A stretch of DNA of 27,062 bases, taken from positions 1 through 27,062 of IMG/VR virus record IMGVR_UViG_3300030107_005999; one strand, 5' to 3'. This document shows positions 17,583 through 26,937 of this stretch, in pieces (position 1 is the first letter of the stretch; each line of letters opens with the position of its first letter). A program made the position numbers and the translations under genes. Source of the stretch: a virus. A model generated the notes under the pieces. That model was not told where the DNA came from. It ran no database searches and saw nothing but the letters and a program-made list of their open reading frames with translations.

Positions 17583-19799
17583 TTAGGCTTCAAACCCAAA
17601 TTCATAGTCCGCTACGCCAGGGCCCCGTGTCCCAATCGCTTGATTAAGCTCCGGAGTTCCCCCGCCTATTAGACCACCCTCACCCATACCTTCTGCCCCC
17701 GGGGGAGCCATTGGCATGGATTCAGTTCCTGGTGCCATTATAGCGCCTTGTCCTTGCGCCATGTCAACACCTAGTTCATCTCCGACCATCCCAGCAGGCA
17801 TCTCAGGCGGCGGCATGTCTTTGCCTCCAGCCTCTACATAGCTCGTCCACCAGGGCACGCCCTGTGCATTTTGGCTTTCCATGTAGTAGTGCCACGCTAA
17901 ATGTCGGACAAAGTTCTCTTGTACCTCTGTCGGTAAGATTCGATACTCGACGCTCTTCATAAACGCCATGTGAACATCAATGTGCGTAAGGTGGTCCTCC
18001 CACGCCTGCACATCAGACCATCCACCATTCTTGATCAACTCGACTTCTTCCTTGGCGTAGTTTCGATCCCGCGAATCGTCACCCTCAAGAAGCTCCGTAT
18101 CGCCAAACTCCATCAGCTTGCGAGCCGTGAGCTTTGTCTGAGGGTCTGCCGGATCCCCAAGCAACCCGACCTGGAATGCCTGCATTACCTGCTCACGCCG
18201 ATACGACGGATGTTTCGGCAGCATCGAGTTTGCGACGATGCGAACATCGGTGCTCTGGATATCGGATGAATAAAAGTCAAATACGTCAATCGCCTTGTTC
18301 TTACCAACCGCACGAATCGTCATCGGTATCGGCATATAATCACGCCAGAAACGAAGCAGGCAGGAACACAGGTCCTCAATCGCACGCTCCATCTCTCGAA
18401 CAGTCGGGCCAAGTTTCGTCTGGTCCAGGTCAGATAAAAGACCAATAGCACGCCCCGACGTGGACGCCGATGCCATACCACGGGTCACATCACTCACCCC
18501 ACTGATTGCCTCGATATGCCCAATCTGCTCATCCTGAATGGCTCGATGCTCAGGAGATAATGGAGGAGGGGGAAGCGGCTGTGGGGGTCTTGAGGCGGTG
18601 CGCGAGTACACAATCACTTCCCCCGGCTGGTCGGTGATTTGATGTTTTTCAATTGACCCCTTCTCGGCTAACCATTTAGGCGAGGCGTGGAGATTCTTGT
18701 TTTCAATCCGCTGACTCACGGACTTATTGAGTTCCTTCTGTGGGGCGACAATTGATTTCACAACGCCCTCACCAGCAAACTTGCCCGGCGCTGTTATGTG
18801 TCGAGCCATAACAAACGGCATCATTCCATAGGGAAGCTCGTCAGACTGCTCGAGGACAATGTCGCCAGCAACCACAATATAGCGACCATCAGGATGGCGA
18901 GGGGATGGGCGCTCGAAATACTCCAAAACAATAACGCGGTCAGTGTACTTCTCGTCCAGCCCCTCATTGCCGCTGAACTCCTTGATTATCTGAGCACTCT
19001 GCGTGTTCGCGCTGTACGAATCCTTCTCAGTGACGTACTTGCCCTTGGGCCAATTGTCCTTGATCTGGTCGATGTGGAGGGAATTTGCATGCACAATCCA
19101 CCGCGCAGTCTCCATATCCTTGGCGCCCGGATCCCAGGCCACATCAAGAACACTCAACACATCAACAACAGGGAAGCCAGTCTTCTCGGTCTTCCGCTTC
19201 TTCTTCGCCGGAGGCTTGTCCCCCGCTTCCATCTCTTCAGCCGTCTCGCCAACAACACCCTCTAGGTGCTCTACGATGGGCTCTTCCTCTTCAAACTCAT
19301 ACTCCACGCCAGCGGTAGGGTCCCACCAGACGCGGAAAAAAGCTGTCCCCGTAGTCGCCATCCACTTGCTAAACTCGTGGACCTTGACCTGCATGTTTGT
19401 CTCATGCCAAATGTAATTCAAGAGCTTCTCTGAGGCTCTAGCCCTATCCTTATCATCATCGTCATCAGTTGCTGGCATAACCATAAAACCAGGACGATTC
19501 TCCGTAAGCTTACCGACAAGGGTCTCGACGGTCGGTAGGATGTAGTTCAGCGTCATCCGAACACGCCATGCGGGGGGTGATGGCTCCTCGAGCATTTGAG
19601 TGACGCGATTCCAGCGGGTCCACTGCTTGCCAGTATAGAACGCTGTCCCAAGCCAGGCTTCCTCGATAACCCCCTGCTTTGCGCTCTCCGCTAGCTCATA
19701 CTGCTCACGAACGAACGAGGCCAACTCCTTCTCTTTGACCTTCGGCTCATACGACGAACGCTTCTTCTCGCCATACTCTCTCGTGATAGGGCCTTCCAT
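17583..19799 (-). CDS. Portal protein
   Basis: A 738-residue protein whose ATG directly abuts the TAG of the upstream gene. Family features: N-terminal helical region with AWLGTAFYTGKQWTRWN (~48-64), LNYILPTVETLVGKLTENRPGFMVMPA (~84-110), the KVHEFSKWMATTGTAFFRVWWDP wing (~139-161), then DVLSVLDVAWDPGAKD, and a long helical crown region. Length matches P22-type portals. A Glu-rich then Lys-rich insert lies at ~168-206. The last ~75 residues are Met/Gly/Pro-rich low complexity. It forms the dodecameric vertex for DNA entry and exit. Confidence 0.9.
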   Translation of the reverse strand: MEGPITREYGEKKRSSYEPKVKEKELASFVREQYELAESAKQGVIEEAWLGTAFYTGKQWTRWNRVTQMLEEPSPPAWRVRMTLNYILPTVETLVGKLTENRPGFMVMPATDDDDDKDRARASEKLLNYIWHETNMQVKVHEFSKWMATTGTAFFRVWWDPTAGVEYEFEEEEPIVEHLEGVVGETAEEMEAGDKPPAKKKRKTEKTGFPVVDVLSVLDVAWDPGAKDMETARWIVHANSLHIDQIKDNWPKGKYVTEKDSYSANTQSAQIIKEFSGNEGLDEKYTDRVIVLEYFERPSPRHPDGRYIVVAGDIVLEQSDELPYGMMPFVMARHITAPGKFAGEGVVKSIVAPQKELNKSVSQRIENKNLHASPKWLAEKGSIEKHQITDQPGEVIVYSRTASRPPQPLPPPPLSPEHRAIQDEQIGHIEAISGVSDVTRGMASASTSGRAIGLLSDLDQTKLGPTVREMERAIEDLCSCLLRFWRDYMPIPMTIRAVGKNKAIDVFDFYSSDIQSTDVRIVANSMLPKHPSYRREQVMQAFQVGLLGDPADPQTKLTARKLMEFGDTELLEGDDSRDRNYAKEEVELIKNGGWSDVQAWEDHLTHIDVHMAFMKSVEYRILPTEVQENFVRHLAWHYYMESQNAQGVPWWTSYVEAGGKDMPPPEMPAGMVGDELGVDMAQGQGAIMAPGTESMPMAPPGAEGMGEGGLIGGGTPELNQAIGTRGPGVADYEFGFEA

Positions 19800-20141
19800 C
19801 TACCGGGGCCCTGCCCCGCCAGTGCGCATCATTTCAAATAGGGCCCGCATCTTTGCAGCTTTGGGGTCGCCCTGCTGGAAGGGTGGCACACTCGAGCCAG
19901 AGAGGGCCATCCCTGCGTCCACGCCCGTGCGGCCCGCTCCACCCTGAGGTGCATATTGCGGGGAAGGGGCCATGTCTTGCGTGAGTGGCTGCGCTCCTGT
20001 GCTTCCCCTCGCTCCCTTTCCGGCATCTTCCATGAGCGCCAAAAGCTCATTGCCCTTGAGTGATTTTAGAATCTTGTCAATTGCCTGCTGGATAATTGTA
20101 TTTGTGTCCCCTTGCATGTTGGCTTCATTGGCAGGTCTCAT
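19800..20141 (-). CDS. Small late protein of unknown function (terminase-portal gap, 4th)
   Basis: A 113-residue protein. ATG 20141 overlaps the previous stop (TAATG). It has a short helix (NTIIQQAIDKILKSLKGNELLALMEDAG, ~14-42) and then a Gly/Pro/Ala/Gln-rich disordered stretch ending in AAKMRALFEMMRTGG. No membrane segment. Last of four small genes wedged between large terminase and portal. Its low-complexity tail resembles the tail of the portal, hinting at a virion or assembly role. Family not recognised. Confidence 0.65.
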   Translation of the reverse strand: MRPANEANMQGDTNTIIQQAIDKILKSLKGNELLALMEDAGKGARGSTGAQPLTQDMAPSPQYAPQGGAGRTGVDAGMALSGSSVPPFQQGDPKAAKMRALFEMMRTGGAGPR

Positions 20142-20422
20142 TAGACTTCTCCCCCTGGCTGGCGGTTTCGTAGGTTCATTGTGGCCCGTATTCTTGCATC
20201 AATTGGCTTGTAAATGGAAGGGCTTGTTGGATTTATTACTGTTTCTGGTGACTGGGGGACGAGCGTTGAAAGCCCCTGTAAGATCGCCTTCGCTGCATTG
20301 GCTCGGGTATCCCCCGATGGAATCATGGGGCTGACTGTGTTCAGTAGCCGCTGGCGGATCCTCTCATAGACAGGGTCCATTGACGTCTTCTCGTCAACAA
20401 GCTTAGGCCCGTATGGCGCCAT
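20141..20422 (-). CDS. Small late protein of unknown function (terminase-portal gap, 3rd)
   Basis: I take ATG 20422, which overlaps the upstream TGA as TGATG; a GTG one codon earlier (20425) is also possible. The product is 93 residues, basic and mainly helical (SMDPVYERIRQRLLNTVSPMI; RANAAKAILQGLSTLV; IDARIRATMNLRN). No known motif. Part of a tightly coupled set of four, so probably made in fixed proportion with the terminase and portal. Confidence 0.65.
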   Translation of the reverse strand: MAPYGPKLVDEKTSMDPVYERIRQRLLNTVSPMIPSGDTRANAAKAILQGLSTLVPQSPETVINPTSPSIYKPIDARIRATMNLRNRQPGGEV

Positions 20423-20754
20423 CACCCCAGCCCCCGTCTGACATTCGCTATTGCCTCAAGGGTCTGCAACCTGTCATGGCGCGGGGTCCCACCATCACTA
20501 CCAAGGGTCACGGGGGTTCTCTGGGAAAGTCTAGTCTGGCTAGGTATATCCCGCATGAGATTGGCCAGGGCCTCTTTATACGTGCCTCCACCTATCTCCG
20601 GAGGGCGAGCGTCCTGCGGCGCAGTAGCTTGCTGATCATCGCCCCACAGACCGCCGAGGACCTTACCGGCAACACCAGCGCCAGCGGCAGCGGCCCCCCC
20701 AGTCAAAAAGGAACTTAAAATTTTTGAGCCCAGAGTGACTTCTGCGACTGCCAT
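20422..20754 (-). CDS. Small Gly/Ala-rich late protein, unknown
   Basis: A 110-residue protein starting at ATG 20754, overlapping the stop before it (TAATG). Residues ~7-36 are a hydrophobic Gly/Ala-rich stretch (KILSSFLTGGAAAAGAGVAGKVLGGLW) that could form a membrane-active helix or pack in a virion; the rest is polar. Such short glycine-zipper segments occur in internal virion proteins. Unrecognised family. Confidence 0.65.
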   Translation of the reverse strand: MAVAEVTLGSKILSSFLTGGAAAAGAGVAGKVLGGLWGDDQQATAPQDARPPEIGGGTYKEALANLMRDIPSQTRLSQRTPVTLGSDGGTPRHDRLQTLEAIANVRRGLG

Positions 20755-20969
20755 TATCGCTCCCTTCGGCCAGCAACGGCAGCTTCTAGGCTGTCGCGCT
20801 GATACATGTCAAATGAGTCCCACTGCTTTGACTTGTCGGACTCTAACCGCAACTTCTCAAGCTCGTCTCTGCGTTTGGAGTCCTTGTGCATAAGCCAAAT
20901 GAGCGCCACCTGCATCGACATGGTAAAAATGTAACACAATAAGAGGAAGAAAAGTAAATAAGTCTGCAT
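20754..20969 (-). CDS. Small membrane protein with charged helical tail (holin/spanin-like?)
   Basis: A 71-residue protein; its ATG overlaps the stop of the large terminase gene (TAATG). One strong membrane segment lies at residues ~4-27 (YLLFFLLLCYIFTMSMQVALIWLM), followed by a charged coiled-coil-like tail (KDSKRRDELEKLRLESDKSKQWDSF). This shape fits an inner-membrane spanin or a single-span holin, and no other lysis gene is seen in the window, but a membrane-anchored assembly factor is equally possible. There is no endolysin neighbour to support lysis. Confidence 0.6.
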   Translation of the reverse strand: MQTYLLFFLLLCYIFTMSMQVALIWLMHKDSKRRDELEKLRLESDKSKQWDSFDMYQRDSLEAAVAGRRER

Positions 20970-22759
20970 TACCAGTACTCCGAAGAGCCAAGATGTGGGT
21001 CAGAGCGAGGGGATTCATCCATCATCAAGTCCCTAGCATACACCGCCCCGGGCTCCCTTTTGGGCTTTGGAGTGATGTCAATTTCTGATGACATCCTCTC
21101 TGAAATTTCTGAATCAAGGTAAAGGGCGATAGCCATCGCCATTACCGCATCATCATGTTCTCCAGGCATCGCCTCGGCTTTCCCTGTCGATGATTCGATA
21201 AAGGTCTGGCATTCGCCCAAAAGACGCAGCGAGTGAAAGTCCCATGACTTATCCCGGATGGCCTTAGCCAGCGCAGCAATCGCCGCATCTCTTTTTCCTT
21301 GGGCCCCAGTTCTGAATCCAAACCTTTGGGTCCAGTTACCGCTCTGAGATCGAACATAGATATTCCGGTACCCATCGCCGCCATTCATATCCAAAAGCTC
21401 ACGCACAACAGCCAGCCCTGGCCCATCAACCTCAGGGATAACAATTGCAAAATTGTAGGCTGACGCCACGGTTGCAGCCTCTCTTGCCACAACATCTGGC
21501 GGAACCCTGGCATAAAACTCGGCCACCTGGCAGCGGTCAGTGACATCGAGGACCTGTACGCAGCTAAAGTCTCCATCATCGATGCCGTGTGCCGAGTCAA
21601 TGGTTACGATGTACTGGTGGTTGGGGTTCACCTCTTTGTAGATTTGCCAGTTATCTTGCCCTGGGAAGATTGTGAGTTTGAATCCATCGTATGAGGCGGC
21701 TGACCCAACCGTCATTTTGGGTGGGTTGTCTTTTAGCTCATCAATTCTGTCAGAGATAATGACTTGATCGAATGGGCTTTTCCCGCTTGAGGTGAAGGCA
21801 ATCTGCGCCGAAAGGGGATACTCGGTATCGAACCGGGTCATATCACCATCGAACTTTGTCTGAAGAACTTGCTGCGCCCATCGAACCTGGCACGGCTTCA
21901 AATCATACTCGACAGCCCGCTCTGACCAAGTCTCGTTGTATCCCATCTGCCTACCAAGGTCGAAAAAGAACTCCATGTCCTCCTTCTCATAGGCATCCAC
22001 CAACGCCTGGTGCTTTTCGTTATCGCCTTTTTGCGGCTCTAGCCTGTAGCGGTCGTGCTCCTGCCACCCGAAAAACAGGGCATCGAACATATTGCCTGGC
22101 TCGTTTCTATGCGCTTTCCAGAACCGATTGTAGAATGCACCGGAGGCTCCATTGGCTGTGGACTCGATGATGATGTACGTGCCGGGTTTTGGATCTACAG
22201 AGCCCATCTGCGCCTGAAGCACATCCTCGTCTGTAGTGGAACGACGTCTTTTCCACCAAAGCGCAAGCTCTGAAATATGAACAAACGATGGCGTGGAGCC
22301 CCGGGCCGCATCCGTTGAACCCTGCGTTTCCACAGAGAACCTAGAGCCGTGCTTCCAGGAGATTGAAGAGCCAACCGCCTTGCCTGGTGCAATGGAGGCA
22401 ATGGATGACGGCAGGTTCTCCTGATATCTTTTTGTAATCTGGAAGACCTCTTTGGTCGATTCCTTCAAGTGCGCCACAACCTTCGCATTGGCATGAGGAT
22501 GGAACTGGCAATAGTGGTGACCGAGCGCCTCAATCAGAGTAGAGCACCCCATTTTACGGGCCTTGAGAATGATGATGCGAACAGGTCTGTTTTGAAACTC
22601 CTGCTCCTCGATGGTCTGTAAGATTCGTTCCTGCTCTTCATTTAGAATAAACGGGACGAGCTTGTAGTATCCATCCTTCAGTGCGCGGATCCTCAAACAA
22701 TGCTTGAAGTAAAACCGCCTATCACGCTTACACCTGTCCCAAAATTCTCTAGGGTCCAT
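20969..22759 (-). CDS. terL: Terminase large subunit (packaging ATPase-nuclease)
   Basis: I take ATG 22759, because TAGGA lies 7 bases upstream; the GTG two codons earlier is too close to it. The product is 596 residues. ATPase: Walker A-like KARKMGCST (~66-74), Walker B FVHISE (~159-164), coupling motif ESTANG (~199-204). RNase H-like nuclease: VTIDSAHG (Asp ~388), IPEVDG (Glu ~443), GEHDDAVMA (Asp ~536-537). All key acidic residues are present. It docks on the portal, pumps DNA and cuts concatemers. It follows the small-terminase candidate after a 95-base gap that holds a strong inverted repeat. Confidence 0.95.
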   Translation of the reverse strand: MDPREFWDRCKRDRRFYFKHCLRIRALKDGYYKLVPFILNEEQERILQTIEEQEFQNRPVRIIILKARKMGCSTLIEALGHHYCQFHPHANAKVVAHLKESTKEVFQITKRYQENLPSSIASIAPGKAVGSSISWKHGSRFSVETQGSTDAARGSTPSFVHISELALWWKRRRSTTDEDVLQAQMGSVDPKPGTYIIIESTANGASGAFYNRFWKAHRNEPGNMFDALFFGWQEHDRYRLEPQKGDNEKHQALVDAYEKEDMEFFFDLGRQMGYNETWSERAVEYDLKPCQVRWAQQVLQTKFDGDMTRFDTEYPLSAQIAFTSSGKSPFDQVIISDRIDELKDNPPKMTVGSAASYDGFKLTIFPGQDNWQIYKEVNPNHQYIVTIDSAHGIDDGDFSCVQVLDVTDRCQVAEFYARVPPDVVAREAATVASAYNFAIVIPEVDGPGLAVVRELLDMNGGDGYRNIYVRSQSGNWTQRFGFRTGAQGKRDAAIAALAKAIRDKSWDFHSLRLLGECQTFIESSTGKAEAMPGEHDDAVMAMAIALYLDSEISERMSSEIDITPKPKREPGAVYARDLMMDESPRSDPHLGSSEYW

Positions 22760-22784
22760 AAACACATCCTACAGGAAAGAAGGT

Positions 22785-22830
22785 GGGGGTGGTCCAAAAG
22801 GTTCGCGTATCAGGGTAGTGGACCACCCCC
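22785..22830. other. Perfect 12-bp inverted repeat between the terminase genes
   Basis: Arms at 22785-22796 and 22819-22830 are perfect reverse complements (GGGGGTGGTCCA / TGGACCACCCCC) around a 22-base spacer. It lies after the small-terminase stop and before the large-terminase start. On the minus-strand RNA it would form a very stable stem, but only a weak T-rich stretch (TTCTTT) follows. It may attenuate transcription, be a processing site or bind a protein. A packaging site is also possible, given its place. Confidence 0.75.
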
Positions 22831-22854
22831 GGAAGAATGACTAAGACAACCATA

Positions 22855-23388
22855 TCACTGGGTCCCACTGGGAGCAACCCTATCTTTCTTCCGAGCACGC
22901 TTCACCCCCGCCCGCTTAAGAGCCTTGCGGACCTGATAAAGAGATAGCCCCGTCTTTTTTACAACGGCCCCCATCGTAAGTCCTGACTTATACAAACGGA
23001 CAGCATCACGCTCTATCGGAGTATTGTCACCCTCCATGTGAGACAACCCAAGATTCACAGTCGCCGCACTCACACCATCAAACTGGGAACGAGCCTGAGC
23101 CTCATCGAGCTTCGCCTCCAAAGGGTCCGCGCCAAATGGGTCCCACCCCTCGTCACCAGATACACAGACAGCCTTCTCAACCATAGAGCCTATCTTCTCG
23201 CGAACGCGAACATAACTGTCCACCCCGCGAACAAGACGACCCAACTCCGCTATGTCGCCACCAGCCTCCTGTATCGCGCTTTGCAACATACGCTCCGCAC
23301 TCACAGCGGCAGACAACCAGTAGCTGGCCAAATCCTTTTCAATTACAGAAACAGGTATCGGTTTTGTTATTGATTTATCTTCTGTCAC
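22855..23388 (-). CDS. Probable terminase small subunit (C-terminal HTH)
   Basis: A 177-residue protein starting at GTG 23388. No Shine-Dalgarno is visible, and the start lies inside a palindrome. The N-terminal two thirds are helical (KDLASYWLSAAVSAERMLQSAIQEAGGDIAELGRLV; VREKIGSMVEKAV). Residues ~127-162 form a helix-turn-helix (RDAVRLYKSGLTMGAVVKKTGLSLYQVRKALKRAG), followed by a basic tail. Its place directly before the large terminase supports a DNA-recognising small subunit. The HTH at the C-terminus is unusual, since small terminases generally carry it N-terminally, so a late transcription regulator is the main alternative. Confidence 0.65.
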   Translation of the reverse strand: MTEDKSITKPIPVSVIEKDLASYWLSAAVSAERMLQSAIQEAGGDIAELGRLVRGVDSYVRVREKIGSMVEKAVCVSGDEGWDPFGADPLEAKLDEAQARSQFDGVSAATVNLGLSHMEGDNTPIERDAVRLYKSGLTMGAVVKKTGLSLYQVRKALKRAGVKRARKKDRVAPSGTQ

Positions 23389-23404
23389 GATGATAATCTT
23401 GACA
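23383..23404. promoter_or_regulatory. 22-bp near-palindromic operator between divergent starts
   Basis: TGTCACGATGA and TAATCTTGACA are reverse complements at 9 of 11 positions. The element covers the GTG of the small-terminase gene and ends one base before the ATG of the divergent ribbon-helix-helix gene. Only 17 bases separate the two start codons, so a protein bound here would affect both genes. The adjacent regulator is the natural candidate to bind it; ribbon-helix-helix proteins often bind such operators as paired dimers. Binding is inferred. Confidence 0.6.
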
Positions 23405-23405
23405 C

Positions 23406-23810
23406 ATGAAAACTAAAACTCAACAAGTATCTGTAGCTTTGGAAGAATCATGTCACGAATTGGTCCGCAGGACATCGGAAAAGACAAGACTAACAATCCA
23501 AACGCTAATCGATGTGGCCGTGGAATCATTCATTGGGTCTTTGGAAAACTACGGACTATCAGTGCCAGCAACCGATAGGAAGGCTCCAAAGGGGCAGGGC
23601 TATGAAAAGCGAGCGGTCATGAGCAAGTCACTGCACGTAAAGCTAAATGAGATCGGCGTCTTTCTCAATGTACCCGTCAGTGCCATGATCCGTGACGCAA
23701 TACTCGGGCAAAGATTCAACTTCCAAAGAATGCAACCAGTGAACGCAAGAGCAATGGGCTCGGTAAGACAAACACTTTTCAAAATCGAACAACAACCGCC
23801 AGCTACCTAA
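23406..23810 (+). CDS. Double ribbon-helix-helix DNA-binding regulator
   Basis: A 134-residue protein. ATG 23406 is the first start after an in-frame TGA at 23400; no Shine-Dalgarno is present, so the message may be leaderless. Residues ~5-47 read as a ribbon-helix-helix unit: strand QQVSVAL, helix EESCHELVRRTSEKTRL, then TIQTLIDVAVESFI. Residues ~68-102 repeat the plan: strand RAVMSKSL, helix HVKLNEIGVFLNV, then PVSAMIRDAILG. Two such units in one chain would make a single-chain pseudo-dimer. It lies against the 22-bp palindrome, so autoregulation and control of the divergent late cluster are likely. Confident in DNA binding, less in the exact role. Confidence 0.7.
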   Translation: MKTKTQQVSVALEESCHELVRRTSEKTRLTIQTLIDVAVESFIGSLENYGLSVPATDRKAPKGQGYEKRAVMSKSLHVKLNEIGVFLNVPVSAMIRDAILGQRFNFQRMQPVNARAMGSVRQTLFKIEQQPPAT

Positions 23811-23889
23811 TCACACACACACACCTCTCACGCGTACGCGCGTATGTATATACACGCGCATGACAAAGGGGGGTGTGTGTGTGTGATTA
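23808..23889. repeat. Cruciform with (CA)n/(GT)n arms and alternating purine-pyrimidine core
   Basis: Arms 23808-23825 and 23872-23889 are perfect 18-bp reverse complements made mostly of CA/TG repeats. The spacer holds a run of 33 strictly alternating purines and pyrimidines (23830-23862, rich in CG, TA and CA steps) with its own GCGCGT/ACGCGC hairpin. Such sequence is prone to left-handed (Z) DNA and cruciform extrusion under supercoiling. It starts inside the regulator's stop codon area and could act as a transcription barrier or supercoil sink. Confidence 0.8.
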
Positions 23890-23982
23890 AGTGTGATCCA
23901 AAAAACGTGCGATTTACTTTATGGGTACCTGCAAGCATATCGCGCGACCCCAATCAAAAATAAAATAGTACTCCCCCCATGT

Positions 23983-24000
23983 TTGGCACGATACTTGCTT
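23983..24000 (+). promoter_or_regulatory. Sigma-54 (-24/-12) promoter, first of three
   Basis: TTGGCACGATACTTGCTT matches the sigma-54 consensus TGGCACG-N4-TTGC exactly, with GG and GC separated by exactly 10 bases. The start site would be near 24010, right where the 9-base repeats begin. Sigma-54 promoters need an ATP-dependent activator, normally bound upstream; none is seen in the window, so a host activator would be used. Confidence 0.7.
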
Positions 24001-24044
24001 GTGTGCCGAATTGTCCGAAATGTCCGATTTGTCCGTTTTGTCTC
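24000..24044 (+). repeat. Five 9-base iterons with TGTCCG core
   Basis: Units start at 24000, 24009, 24018, 24027 and 24036 with strict 9-base period. The three central ones are AATTGTCCG, AAATGTCCG and ATTTGTCCG; the flanking ones are degenerate (TGTGTGCCG, TTTTGTCTC). The last runs into a palindrome. A regular TGTC half-site array just downstream of the first promoter is a plausible repressor or initiator binding site. It is not a CRISPR: units are adjacent with no spacers. Confidence 0.75.
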
Positions 24045-24062
24045 AATATGAGACACCAAAAC
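24035..24062. promoter_or_regulatory. TGTC/GACA palindrome downstream of promoter 1
   Basis: TGTCTCA-ATA-TGAGACA (24039-24055) is a perfect inverted repeat. Outer GTTTTG/CAAAAC arms extend it to 28 bases with slight overlap. It shares TGTC/GACA ends with the palindrome at 23383-23404, so the same ribbon-helix-helix protein could bind both. Operator function is inferred. Confidence 0.6.
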
Positions 24063-24117
24063 GGGACACATATACACATGCGCATATATTACACACACGC
24101 GCACACAAAGGTTACAC

Positions 24118-24135
24118 TTGGCACGATCATTGCTT
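24118..24135 (+). promoter_or_regulatory. Sigma-54 (-24/-12) promoter, second of three
   Basis: TTGGCACGATCATTGCTT matches TGGCACG-N4-TTGC with the exact 10-base GG-GC spacing. It differs from the first site only in the N4 spacer region. Predicted start near 24145. It lies 135 bases from the first site. Confidence 0.7.
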
Positions 24136-24170
24136 GCTCTGCATCATCCATGCCAACATAGTCAACACAC

Positions 24171-24188
24171 TTGGCACATTGTTTGCAT
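24171..24188 (+). promoter_or_regulatory. Sigma-54 (-24/-12) promoter, third of three
   Basis: TTGGCACATTGTTTGCAT keeps TGGCAC, TTGC and the exact 10-base GG-GC spacing; only the final G of the -24 element is changed. Predicted start near 24198. It lies 53 bases from the second site, same orientation, reading towards the structured RNA and the small genes. Confidence 0.65.
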
Positions 24189-24275
24189 GCTCGCCAGTCC
24201 AACACACACCAAACCACACACAAAACACGACCAAACCATGTACGTTTTTTGCGCGTTTCCACTGTCAACAATGTG

Positions 24276-24302
24276 CCAAAACACCCCAAAACACCCAAAA
24301 CC
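24276..24302. repeat. C-run/A-run tract (G-quadruplex potential on minus strand)
   Basis: The plus strand has CC, CCCC, CCC and CC runs separated by AAAACA-type spacers with a 9-10 base period. The minus strand therefore carries four G runs, enough for a two-layer quadruplex. It sits in a longer AC-rich, structure-poor plus-strand segment. Confidence 0.5.
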
Positions 24303-24471
24303 TAAACGCTGCACTGCGGTACAATCGACATGGGAAATACGAATATGCTTGCAATCTATGTCTACAGGCCTCATTGTTGACCCCAGGTTCAGGGATGAAT
24401 CAGGCCCAACGGGGTTCGCTCCTAGTAAGTCACCTGCCCACATGATGTGGGAGGTTCTTTGACAAAGCGCA

Positions 24472-25378: not shown

Positions 25379-25521
25379 CAGCTTACAGCATTGGCGAGCG
25401 CGTGGTGGCGTGCTGGAAGTATCGCGGGACAATCGTCTCGATATGGAAGGCACGCTATCGCGTGAGGTGGCCAGGCGGTGAGGCCTGGTTCGATATTGAC
25501 CAAATTGAAAGGGACGGATGA
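25366..25521 (+). CDS. 51-residue SH3-like small protein
   Basis: I choose ATG 25366, with GGAG about 4 bases upstream; a GTG at 25291 would lengthen it but has a weaker context and would duplicate coding of the overlapping small genes. The sequence reads VTAYSIGERVVACWKYRG, then TIVSIWKARYRVRWPGGEAWFDIDQIERDG: five short strands with the GERV....G.I......Y.V.WP.G pattern of KOW/SH3-like barrels. Such small barrels are common in phage early regions. Overlaps the next start as ATGA-like TGATG. Confidence 0.6.
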   Translation: MVAVTAYSIGERVVACWKYRGTIVSIWKARYRVRWPGGEAWFDIDQIERDG

Positions 25522-25589
25522 TGAACCACGACGAGGTGATTTTTGCAGTTTGTTTTGTTGGTCTGTTCATAGTGGCAGGCCTTTTATAA
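25521..25589 (+). CDS. 22-residue membrane peptide
   Basis: ATG 25521 overlaps the preceding TGA and is preceded by AAAGGGACGG. The product is MNHDEVIFAVCFVGLFIVAG plus LL, one membrane helix (~5-22). Very short, so confidence rests on coupling and composition. It ends 9 bases before the tRNA gene. Confidence 0.4.
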   Translation: MNHDEVIFAVCFVGLFIVAGLL

Positions 25590-25598
25590 GAGAATCAT

Positions 25599-25791
25599 AC
25601 CCGAGTAGCTCAGTTGGCCAGAGCACCGTTAGTAGGAAACCTCAGGTCCACACACGGAGTCGCGTCGCAAGCGCATGGGGAATTCGCCCCCACCGTAATC
25701 AGTGGCGATTGGGTCTGAGGCGGAAACACCCATGCAAGGTGGATCTATGACAGAGCGGGGGTCGGCAGTTCGATTCTGCCCTCGGGTTCCA
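25599..25791 (+). tRNA. tRNA gene interrupted in the anticodon arm; mature form would be tRNA-Val(GAC)
   Basis: The two halves of a normal tRNA are separated by about 116 bases. 5' half (25599-25630): acceptor ACCCGAG, TA, D arm GCTC-AGTTGGCCA-GAGC, A, anticodon stem CCGTT. 3' half (25747-25791): ATGACAG as a 7-base loop, stem AGCGG, variable GGGTC, T arm GGCAG-TTCGATT-CTGCC, acceptor CTCGGGT, T, encoded CCA. Acceptor pairs 7/7 and the anticodon stem 5/5 with one G-U. Only a junction at loop position 31/32 or 32/33 leaves U33 in place, and both give anticodon GAC (Val). The joined product is 77 nt, a standard size. It lies between tiny early genes and a zinc-ribbon protein. Confidence 0.75.
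25631..25746 (+). other. Structured 116-nt insertion in the tRNA (intron-like, class unknown)
   Basis: A 10-bp helix pairs 25640-25649 with 25711-25720 (CCTCAGGTCC / GGGTCTGAGG, two G-U). Inside lie possible hairpins GGGG/CCCC (25677-25690) and CCAC/GTGG (25690-25705); outside, CACC-CATGCAA-GGTG (25727-25741). GGAAAC occurs twice (25635, 25722). GGCGG at 25719-25723 could pair with the 5' exon end CCGTT with a final U-G, like a group I P1, but the segment is far shorter than usual group I introns, shows no recognisable P/Q/R/S core, and would not end in G. Boundaries could be one base to the right. Confidence 0.6.
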
Positions 25792-25817
25792 AGCAACTTT
25801 ATAACAAGGGAGGAGTG

Positions 25818-26360
25818 ATGAAGAAAATTGAGTACAGCCAAGCTGTCAATCCAGCACACAAGGATGCTGAAAACATCCCTGTAGCCGTTACAGGGTATGA
25901 CTTCGGCGTGCCTGGCTTGGCAGTCCGTAAGGCATGGGGCTCGTGGCAAATTGACCACGTGCCAAGTGGTTACCGTGTAATCACTTACTACCATACCACT
26001 CGGAGGGAGTGTGTGGAGAGTGCATTGCGAGCACAAGAGCAGGTTCCGGGTATTGACTGGACGGCCAGCAAGGAAGCGATAACAAGCGAGCATCTTATGG
26101 ATGCCACTAGGGCGTGGCGGGACGTGTTTGAGAGGGGGCATGTTTATCACACGAAACGTGAAAAGCACAGCATAACGGTGTGCCATGGGTGGACGCTGGG
26201 CGACCTTGAGTCGTTCATATATGAGGGACTATCGGAGGGATTGTGTGGGGCTTGTGGCGAGGTATCAGGTAACCACGAGCCGGACGCTACCAACAACTGG
26301 TGTCCTGGGTGTAAGGAATTGAAAGTGACCAGCGCACTGGTGCTGGCCGGAATGATTTAG
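25818..26360 (+). CDS. Early-type protein with C-terminal zinc ribbon
   Basis: A 180-residue protein. ATG 25818 has GGGAGG 4 bases upstream; the GTG one codon earlier is too close. The N-terminal part has VTGYDFGVPGLAVRKAWGSWQIDHVPSGYRV, a pattern seen in small phage early proteins (an LAVxK...W.ITHxPSG unit) followed by a helix with CVESALRAQ. The C-terminus has CGAC (Cys 143, 146) and CPGC (Cys 162, 165) around GEVSGNHEPDATNNW, a four-cysteine zinc ribbon. It probably binds zinc and possibly nucleic acid or protein. No enzyme motif. Followed after 8 bases by a small gene. Confidence 0.7.
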   Translation: MKKIEYSQAVNPAHKDAENIPVAVTGYDFGVPGLAVRKAWGSWQIDHVPSGYRVITYYHTTRRECVESALRAQEQVPGIDWTASKEAITSEHLMDATRAWRDVFERGHVYHTKREKHSITVCHGWTLGDLESFIYEGLSEGLCGACGEVSGNHEPDATNNWCPGCKELKVTSALVLAGMI

Positions 26361-26368
26361 GAGGCGTG

Positions 26369-26452
26369 ATGGAAAGCATAGAAGCATATATGAAGCGAAT
26401 GTATAAGCGGTGGGCCTATCCGCCCATTAGCATTCTCAATTTTTGGCCGTAG
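26369..26452 (+). CDS. 27-residue aromatic/basic peptide
   Basis: ATG 26369 follows AGGAGG by about 5 bases. The product MESIEAYMKRMYKRWAYPPI ends SILNFWP: a short amphipathic basic helix and an aromatic/proline tail. Strong ribosome-binding site and tight spacing (8 and 9 bases to the neighbours) support it. Function unknown. Confidence 0.5.
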   Translation: MESIEAYMKRMYKRWAYPPISILNFWP

Positions 26453-26461
26453 GGAGGAGTA

Positions 26462-26605
26462 ATGGAAGAGCAATTAACAGGATGGCGGCTGCTTGGCTAC
26501 CTCATGTATCGGTTCCACTTGGACCTGGGGCAAGCGGTAGAGTCAATGGTCCAAAACAACCAGGACATGACCTTTGTGAATGAACTGCTAGGCGAGGAGG
26601 AGTGA
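26462..26605 (+). CDS. 47-residue acidic helical protein
   Basis: ATG 26462 follows GGGAGGAG by 3-5 bases. The product starts MEEQLTGWRLLGYLMYRFHL and ends ELLGEEE. It is mostly helical and acidic, with no membrane span long enough to be sure. It is two bases from the next start. Typical of small phage early proteins that act on host factors, but nothing specific can be said. Confidence 0.55.
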   Translation: MEEQLTGWRLLGYLMYRFHLDLGQAVESMVQNNQDMTFVNELLGEEE

Positions 26606-26607
26606 TT

Positions 26608-26937
26608 ATGTCTTACGAATGGCCATACGGTCCATGGACTGTGGACTACGATGATGTCTGTGACATTGGGAAATGCACAATCCGATCGGAGCCGACTAGC
26701 TGGCACGAGGGAGGGCGGGTGGCGACTGTCAGCATGACTTCGCCGTCTATAGTGCGGCTACTCTCCAGAGCCCCGGAACTATACGACCACCTTACGGATA
26801 TTGTTCACATGATAGATGAGCGGGTGATGGTGCTAGGGGAGACAAAGGGTGGGCAATACGACCGGGCAGCGCAGGGGCAATGGGATGCCTCCATGCGCCA
26901 GGCCAGGAAGTTAATTAAAGAACTGTCGGGGCAGTAA
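26608..26937 (+). CDS. Hypothetical early protein (APEL-type)
   Basis: A 109-residue protein. ATG 26608 has GAGGAG about 6 bases upstream; the GTG two codons earlier is less well placed. It carries SIVRLLSRAPELYDHLTDIVHMI, matching the 'A..LM..APELLEAL' helix common in small uncharacterised phage proteins, with an aromatic N-terminus (YEWPYGPWTVDYDD). The C-terminus is a helix (MRQARKLIKELSGQ). No known enzymatic role. Confidence 0.65.
   Translation: MSYEWPYGPWTVDYDDVCDIGKCTIRSEPTSWHEGGRVATVSMTSPSIVRLLSRAPELYDHLTDIVHMIDERVMVLGETKGGQYDRAAQGQWDASMRQARKLIKELSGQ

Follow-up and report, generated by a model that had tools for sequence, protein, structure and literature searches.

Does a tRNA body whose anticodon arm is split by a 116-nt insert encode a spliced tRNA, or does it encode an RNA that only takes the shape of one? 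The question is raised by a 27,062-base IMG/VR virus record, referred to here in its full length as the window, which encodes a P22-like portal protein and has PHROG matches to terminase and the major head protein. An earlier, sequence-only reading of positions 25599-25791 saw a tRNA-Val(GAC) split by this insert and offered as explanations a minimal or degenerate self-splicing RNA, a new intron type or, as its third alternative, an RNA of tRNA shape that stays unspliced.

A split tRNA body and its relatives in other phages

The tRNA body split by an anticodon-arm insert at 25599-25791 is a real observation. ARAGORN reports no tRNA in the window when introns are disallowed. With introns allowed, its single call in the window is exactly 25599-25791, with a poorer 99-nt excision and the anticodon CAT. 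Removal of 116 nt by hand, after 25630 or after 25631, leaves a clean 77-nt tRNA-Val(GAC) that ARAGORN calls, which bears out for the window the proposal that removal in the anticodon loop restores U33 and GAC. The description of every tRNA part as present and paired was also accurate: the acceptor, D, anticodon and T stems and the CCA are found as listed here, where members are the related elements described below.

25599-25791, + strand: whole tRNA-shaped RNA element; similarity to other phages ends at its limits
25599-25605, + strand: acceptor stem, 5' strand ACCCGAG, pairing with 25781-25787; three compensatory pairs among members
25608-25624, + strand: D arm, stem GCTC/GAGC, from the sequence
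25626-25630, + strand: anticodon stem, 5' strand CCGTT, pairing with 25754-25758; the same in four of five distinct members, CCGCC in L069
25631-25747, + strand: inserted segment, 116 nt excised; one A at the junction is ambiguous
25631-25655, + strand: core block 1, conserved in the member alignment, AGUAGGAANCCNNAGRUCCACACAC
25656-25680, + strand: peripheral region, variable; in L038 and L069 it is shorter by 10 nt and folds as CCGG...CCGG
25681-25749, + strand: core block 2, conserved in the member alignment, with the 3' end ...GUGGAUCUAUG
25750-25753, + strand: 3' joining residues ACAG ahead of the anticodon stem; members differ in length and sequence
25754-25758, + strand: anticodon stem, 3' strand AGCGG, from the member alignment
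25764-25780, + strand: T arm, GGCAG-UUCGAUU-CUGCC; three compensatory pairs among members
25781-25791, + strand: acceptor 3' strand CTCGGGT, U73 and encoded CCA; the other members lack CCA

The variable loop of the window element is 5 nt. ARAGORN -i on 100 dinucleotide-shuffled windows (2.7 Mb) gave two matches, each with an apparent intron of more than 1 kb. A chance origin is unlikely, mainly because the whole RNA recurs in six further phage contigs with its tRNA pairing kept by compensatory changes.

These six IMG/VR contigs are L038, L045, L066, L067, L068 and L069. L038 and L045 were found by junction-type DNA patterns, and the other four by a pattern taken from the conserved core of those two. 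With the window included, the distinct sequences number five. In all homologs, the insert lies inside a tRNA body with intact pairing; the sequence-only reading had considered that the segment might occur without paired tRNA halves, and paired halves are present in every homolog. R1, a covariance model built on the insert together with the anticodon stem, matches the seven contigs at E <= 1.3e-33 in 367 kb of collected sequence, these being its own building sequences and the near-duplicate L067, so that the result shows coherence and not independent discovery. In the same 367 kb, R1 matches nothing else beyond overlapping copies of these loci. Together, the elements make up a small phage RNA family, tRNA-shaped and sharing a conserved anticodon-arm domain.

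When the window is compared with the other members, DNA similarity can be detected only in the element and ends within 2 nt of the tRNA ends; with L045, it spans 25598 to 25792. Since the element alone is common to the window and the other carriers and stops at the tRNA ends, the unit shared is the whole RNA, not the insert only. Another reading of the locus is a tRNA pseudogene broken by a small inserted element, for which TTA-insert-TAT in the window can be read as a 2-bp (TA) target duplication. Such a pseudogene is extremely improbable, as the insert sits at the same place in five distinct sequences, the tRNA arms carry compensatory changes, a strong promoter precedes the element in L045, and terminal inverted repeats were not seen.

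Over the stretches examined, the carriers besides the window and L038 encode a UvsX-like recombinase, a DnaB-like helicase and a ribonucleotide reductase. In L066, L067 and L069, the element lies 4 nt after tRNA-Leu(TAA), between tRNA-Arg(TCT) and tRNA-Met, and L068 has the same Leu-element-Met order. CCA is not encoded in the L066, L068, L045, L069 and L038 elements, unlike the window element, and the tRNA-Leu genes adjoining the element in L066 and L069 likewise lack it. An ORF at L066:5787-6305 (- strand), with HNH-endonuclease-like and recombinase/invertase-like PHROG matches, lies about 180 nt downstream of the element and overlaps tRNA-Met; it could be a mobility gene of the tRNA cassette. 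Right behind the 5' anticodon stem of L069 (2440-2450, - strand), about 11 bases are added before the conserved AGTAGGAA start, and L069 is the only member with an insertion ahead of AGTAGGAA.

In the window, the element is flanked by a 23-aa ORF (25518-25589) and a 181-aa ORF (25815-26360). L003, a phage 95% identical over 18586-24465, matches the window as far as 25592, beyond which other small genes take its place until 26933. In L002/L004 (79-92% identical in the main matching blocks), position 25592 is joined to the gene at 26453. As these relatives do not have the element at this place, it is a single cassette in a variable region. In the terminase relatives of the window phage that were fetched, ARAGORN with introns allowed found no tRNA. 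The gene block at 25593-26932 differs wholly between the window and the otherwise 95%-identical L003, which marks the segment as a hypervariable cassette region of small genes.

Signals for expression differ among the carriers. L045 has a perfect sigma-70 promoter (TTGACA-N17-TATAAT, 12/12) whose end lies 22 nt upstream of the element, and L066 has an 11/12 promoter ahead of the tRNA-Leu/element pair. No promoter-like site lies in the 400 nt upstream of the window element, and the RNA of the window would thus come from an operon transcript and be released by tRNA processing. Between a TTGACA-like site and the L038 element, about 150 nt (L072:4480-4640) look like more noncoding sequence; they have no Rfam match above the gathering score.

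Constraint and structure of the inserted domain

The core and the tRNA body differ in conservation. Over the core positions compared (25631-25655 and 25681-25749), the window is 99% identical to L045 and 95% identical to L066, with tRNA bodies at 91% and 70%; L038 and L069 are 95% identical in the core and 76% in the body. Across the two groups (window/L045/L066 versus L038/L069), the core is 84-86% identical and the body 65-83%. Ordinary tRNAs of the same phages are 92-99% identical versus 75-82% for the element body. Because the ordinary tRNAs are better conserved, the body appears to be held by its shape and not as a decoding tRNA, and it drifts faster; its acceptor and T stems each carry the three compensatory pairs listed above. 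The anticodon stem (CCGUU/AGCGG), constant except in L069, behaves in the alignment as if it were part of the core. The GC content of the core is 53-59%, versus 38-40% in the phage stretches examined around L067 and L069. A hint that the L066 body and core have different nearest relatives was set aside as unusable, with 4 informative body sites.

The insert had been described as structured, and this holds in part: helices can be drawn through the members, and the insert is only weakly structured relative to shuffled sequence, with MFE z-scores of -1.3 to +0.1 over five members, so that it is not clearly more stable. The candidate helices are as follows.

25644-25651, + strand: helix H1, 5' strand AGGUCCAC, pairing with GUGGAUCU at 25739-25746; one pair changes from G-U to A-U
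25684-25688/25719-25723, + strand: helix that agrees with all members
25699-25702, + strand: helix H4, 5' strand UCAG, pairing with CUGA at 25715-25718; C-G, U-G and U-A across members
25727-25730, + strand: hairpin H5, 5' strand CACC, pairing with GGUG at 25738-25741; compensatory change of C-G to U-A

H1 and H5 compete for 25739-25741. Covariation in the insert is small (two pairs changed on both sides, a score reached by 40 of 500 shuffles), and RNAalifold favours a partly different fold. Two further helices were rejected: CCUCAGGUCCA/UGGGUCUGAGG, 11 bp in the window, is broken in L038, and GCAUGGG/CCCAUGC is broken in L038 and has a mismatch in L045. Hand-drawn folds of the HDV-like, hammerhead and group I types each lack a required helix or residue.

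A search of all 4227 Rfam families with the window, L038, L069 and L066, at the gathering threshold and at E up to 10, returned chance matches only. None of these four members has a meaningful match to group I (RF00028, P3-P8 core), group II or tmRNA, and the assignment of the segment to no known class therefore stands. The covariance comparison with Rfam group I that had been suggested along with that assignment is part of this search. A degenerate or minimal form of an ordinary group I or group II intron would account for the anticodon-loop position and for the GGAAACC-like and hairpin motifs. Such an intron is very unlikely, given the lack of a group I/II match, alignment-supported helices that allow no P3-P7-P8 arrangement, and a 95%-conserved core between unrelated phages, which is not expected of a degenerate intron.

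Wider searches gave no further relatives. When the element was compared by BLAST with 50,697 phages, 72,556 plasmids and 5,426 E. coli genomes, the matches were to tRNA arms only, or there were none. A DNA pattern of the exact 5' insert sequence had no match, a Val(GAC) gap pattern found only three ordinary tandem tRNA pairs, and a DNA pattern search of genome contigs gave seven chance matches, none of them a tRNA. R1 found nothing in 337 genomes from the same class as the Rhodobacteraceae contig L052 or in 321 from that of the Proteobacteria contig L054, both sets searched with strict filters and no positive control. RNA ligase PF09414 was not found in the carrier phages, and a literature search found no report of this RNA.

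Splicing across members and the preferred reading

Each possible junction was defined relative to the conserved blocks, and the resulting loop was computed for every member. At the junction originally proposed, the loop is AUGACAG (U33, GAC, A37) in the window and L045 and AUGGACA (GGA, C37) in L038, and L066 and L069 have 8-nt loops. Junction rules that give 7-nt loops in L066 and L069 place G33 there and leave 6-nt loops elsewhere. Among all junctions of this kind, no single rule gives a 7-nt loop in every member, and none yields both U33 and a Val anticodon outside the window and L045. A 7-nt loop with U33 and a Val anticodon is thus present in these two and absent from L038, L066 and L069 at the same junction. 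The acceptor, D and T arms and a canonical T loop are present in all members.

Canonical tRNA-Val is thus not a conserved product. As the leading explanation, a tRNA-Val intron finds no support, and the best fit to the homologs is the third alternative of the earlier reading, the unspliced RNA of tRNA shape. The occurrence of one U33-bearing loop by chance in two close relatives, with cores 99% identical, is not improbable.

An intron deserves weight. The insert could be a new, very small tRNA-Val intron, self-splicing or protein-assisted, in which the core is the ribozyme and the anticodon stem is the splice-site recognition element. The anticodon loop is the usual site of bacterial tRNA introns, the Val(GAC) loop is canonical in the window and L045, and the core is better conserved than the exons, as for a mobile intron entering different tRNAs. 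In addition, all members keep AC beside the 3' junction, and if G33 is tolerated in L066 and L069, four of the five distinct members could therefore show a Val anticodon (GAC or UAC). L066 and L069 have no 7-nt U33 loop at any shared junction, though, and the loop of L038 either reads GGA with C37 or has 6 nt. Moreover, the shared unit takes in the whole tRNA, 116 nt is below the size of known bacterial group I introns, and the U-G rule gives no consistent terminal G. We regard this small intron as unlikely, though it is the main alternative. The more specific proposal, that the insert of about 116 nt represents a new class of tRNA intron or splicing ribozyme and moves inside tRNA genes among unrelated phages, is slightly more doubtful still.

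The reading we prefer, with a probability of roughly 0.58, is that of an unspliced, tRNA-scaffolded noncoding RNA in which the inserted domain is the working part. It is preferred mainly because the canonical Val tRNA is not conserved; unusual loops or lineage-specific junctions are possible. Also in its favour are the coherence of the family under R1, the sharing of the whole RNA, the stronger conservation of the core over a body that keeps its pairing and varies more than ordinary tRNAs, the promoters in L045 and L066, and the higher GC content of the core. The element would be a stand-alone noncoding RNA gene in several unrelated phages. Its acceptor, D and T arms would fold as a normal tRNA body, whose ends would be trimmed and protected by host RNase P, RNase Z or exonucleases and the CCA-adding enzyme. 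In place of the anticodon arm, a conserved and unspliced domain of about 120 nt would be the active part, most likely through binding to a protein of the host or the phage. Against this scaffold reading count the perfect U33-GAC-A37 loop in the window and L045, the small number of distinct sequences, and the small covariation and weak z-scores of the insert. Unusual splicing might, in principle, also leave each tRNA half functional.

One particular form of the scaffold reading, with a probability contained in the figure above, is a decoy or sponge for a host tRNA-acting factor such as an anticodon nuclease, RNase P or a tRNA-modifying enzyme. The tRNA shape with an altered anticodon arm is consistent with a decoy, as is the placement of the element: the window phage carries it as a single cassette in the variable region, and L003, 95% identical over the adjoining 5.9 kb, lacks it. 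Neither a defence system nor a target was identified, and the decoy is a rather improbable version.

Comparison with known systems

The element is likely to be a new type of phage RNA, not a tRNA carrying an ordinary intron, and both the scaffolded RNA and the small intron would be new. Known bacterial group I introns are about 200 nt or more. The phage insert, at 116 nt, lacks both a group I core and an Rfam match. Were it an intron, it would be far smaller than the tRNA introns known in bacteria and about half the size of known self-splicing ones. Group I introns interrupt bacterial tRNA anticodon loops in cyanobacterial tRNA-Leu and Azoarcus tRNA-Ile (PMC3984707). The likeness is that the insert interrupts the anticodon loop, the tRNA gene being otherwise normal. 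Unlike those introns, the phage homologs give no consistent canonical spliced loop. Under the group I splice-site rule (5' U, last intron base G), no junction fits with a 7-nt U33 loop in all members, and the L066 insert would end in U, not G, under the UAC reading.

Archaeal bulge-helix-bulge tRNA introns are also short and can occupy non-canonical anticodon-loop positions. By inspection of the window, no bulge-helix-bulge (3-4-3) can be drawn at either junction, where UAGG versus GACA and GUAG versus UGAC are unpaired. Unlike the archaeal systems, the carriers encode proteins of bacterial-phage type (P22-like portal, UvsX-like recombinase).

Like tmRNA, the element combines the acceptor and T arms of a tRNA with a long structured domain where the normal anticodon arm would be. 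It differs in its normal 4-bp D stem, in C3-G70 instead of G3-U70 in the window, and in having no conserved reading frame, with insert lengths that differ by 10 and 1 nt. ARAGORN makes no tmRNA call on the element, and the Rfam tmRNA match is limited to a 17-nt T-arm fragment. YrlA, a bacterial Y RNA, is a noncoding RNA in which a tRNA-mimicking module is joined to an effector arm. YrlA has a capped acceptor end, and its termini are located in the effector stem, unlike the element, which ends at the acceptor stem and has no Rfam match in four members.

If the scaffold reading is true, the element is a natural phage noncoding RNA that uses a tRNA body for processing and protection and carries an anticodon-arm domain acting on the host. 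In engineered tRNA scaffolds, a tRNA body carries a foreign RNA and enables its expression in cells (PMC3753655). Those scaffolds are man-made, and the phage element would be their natural counterpart.
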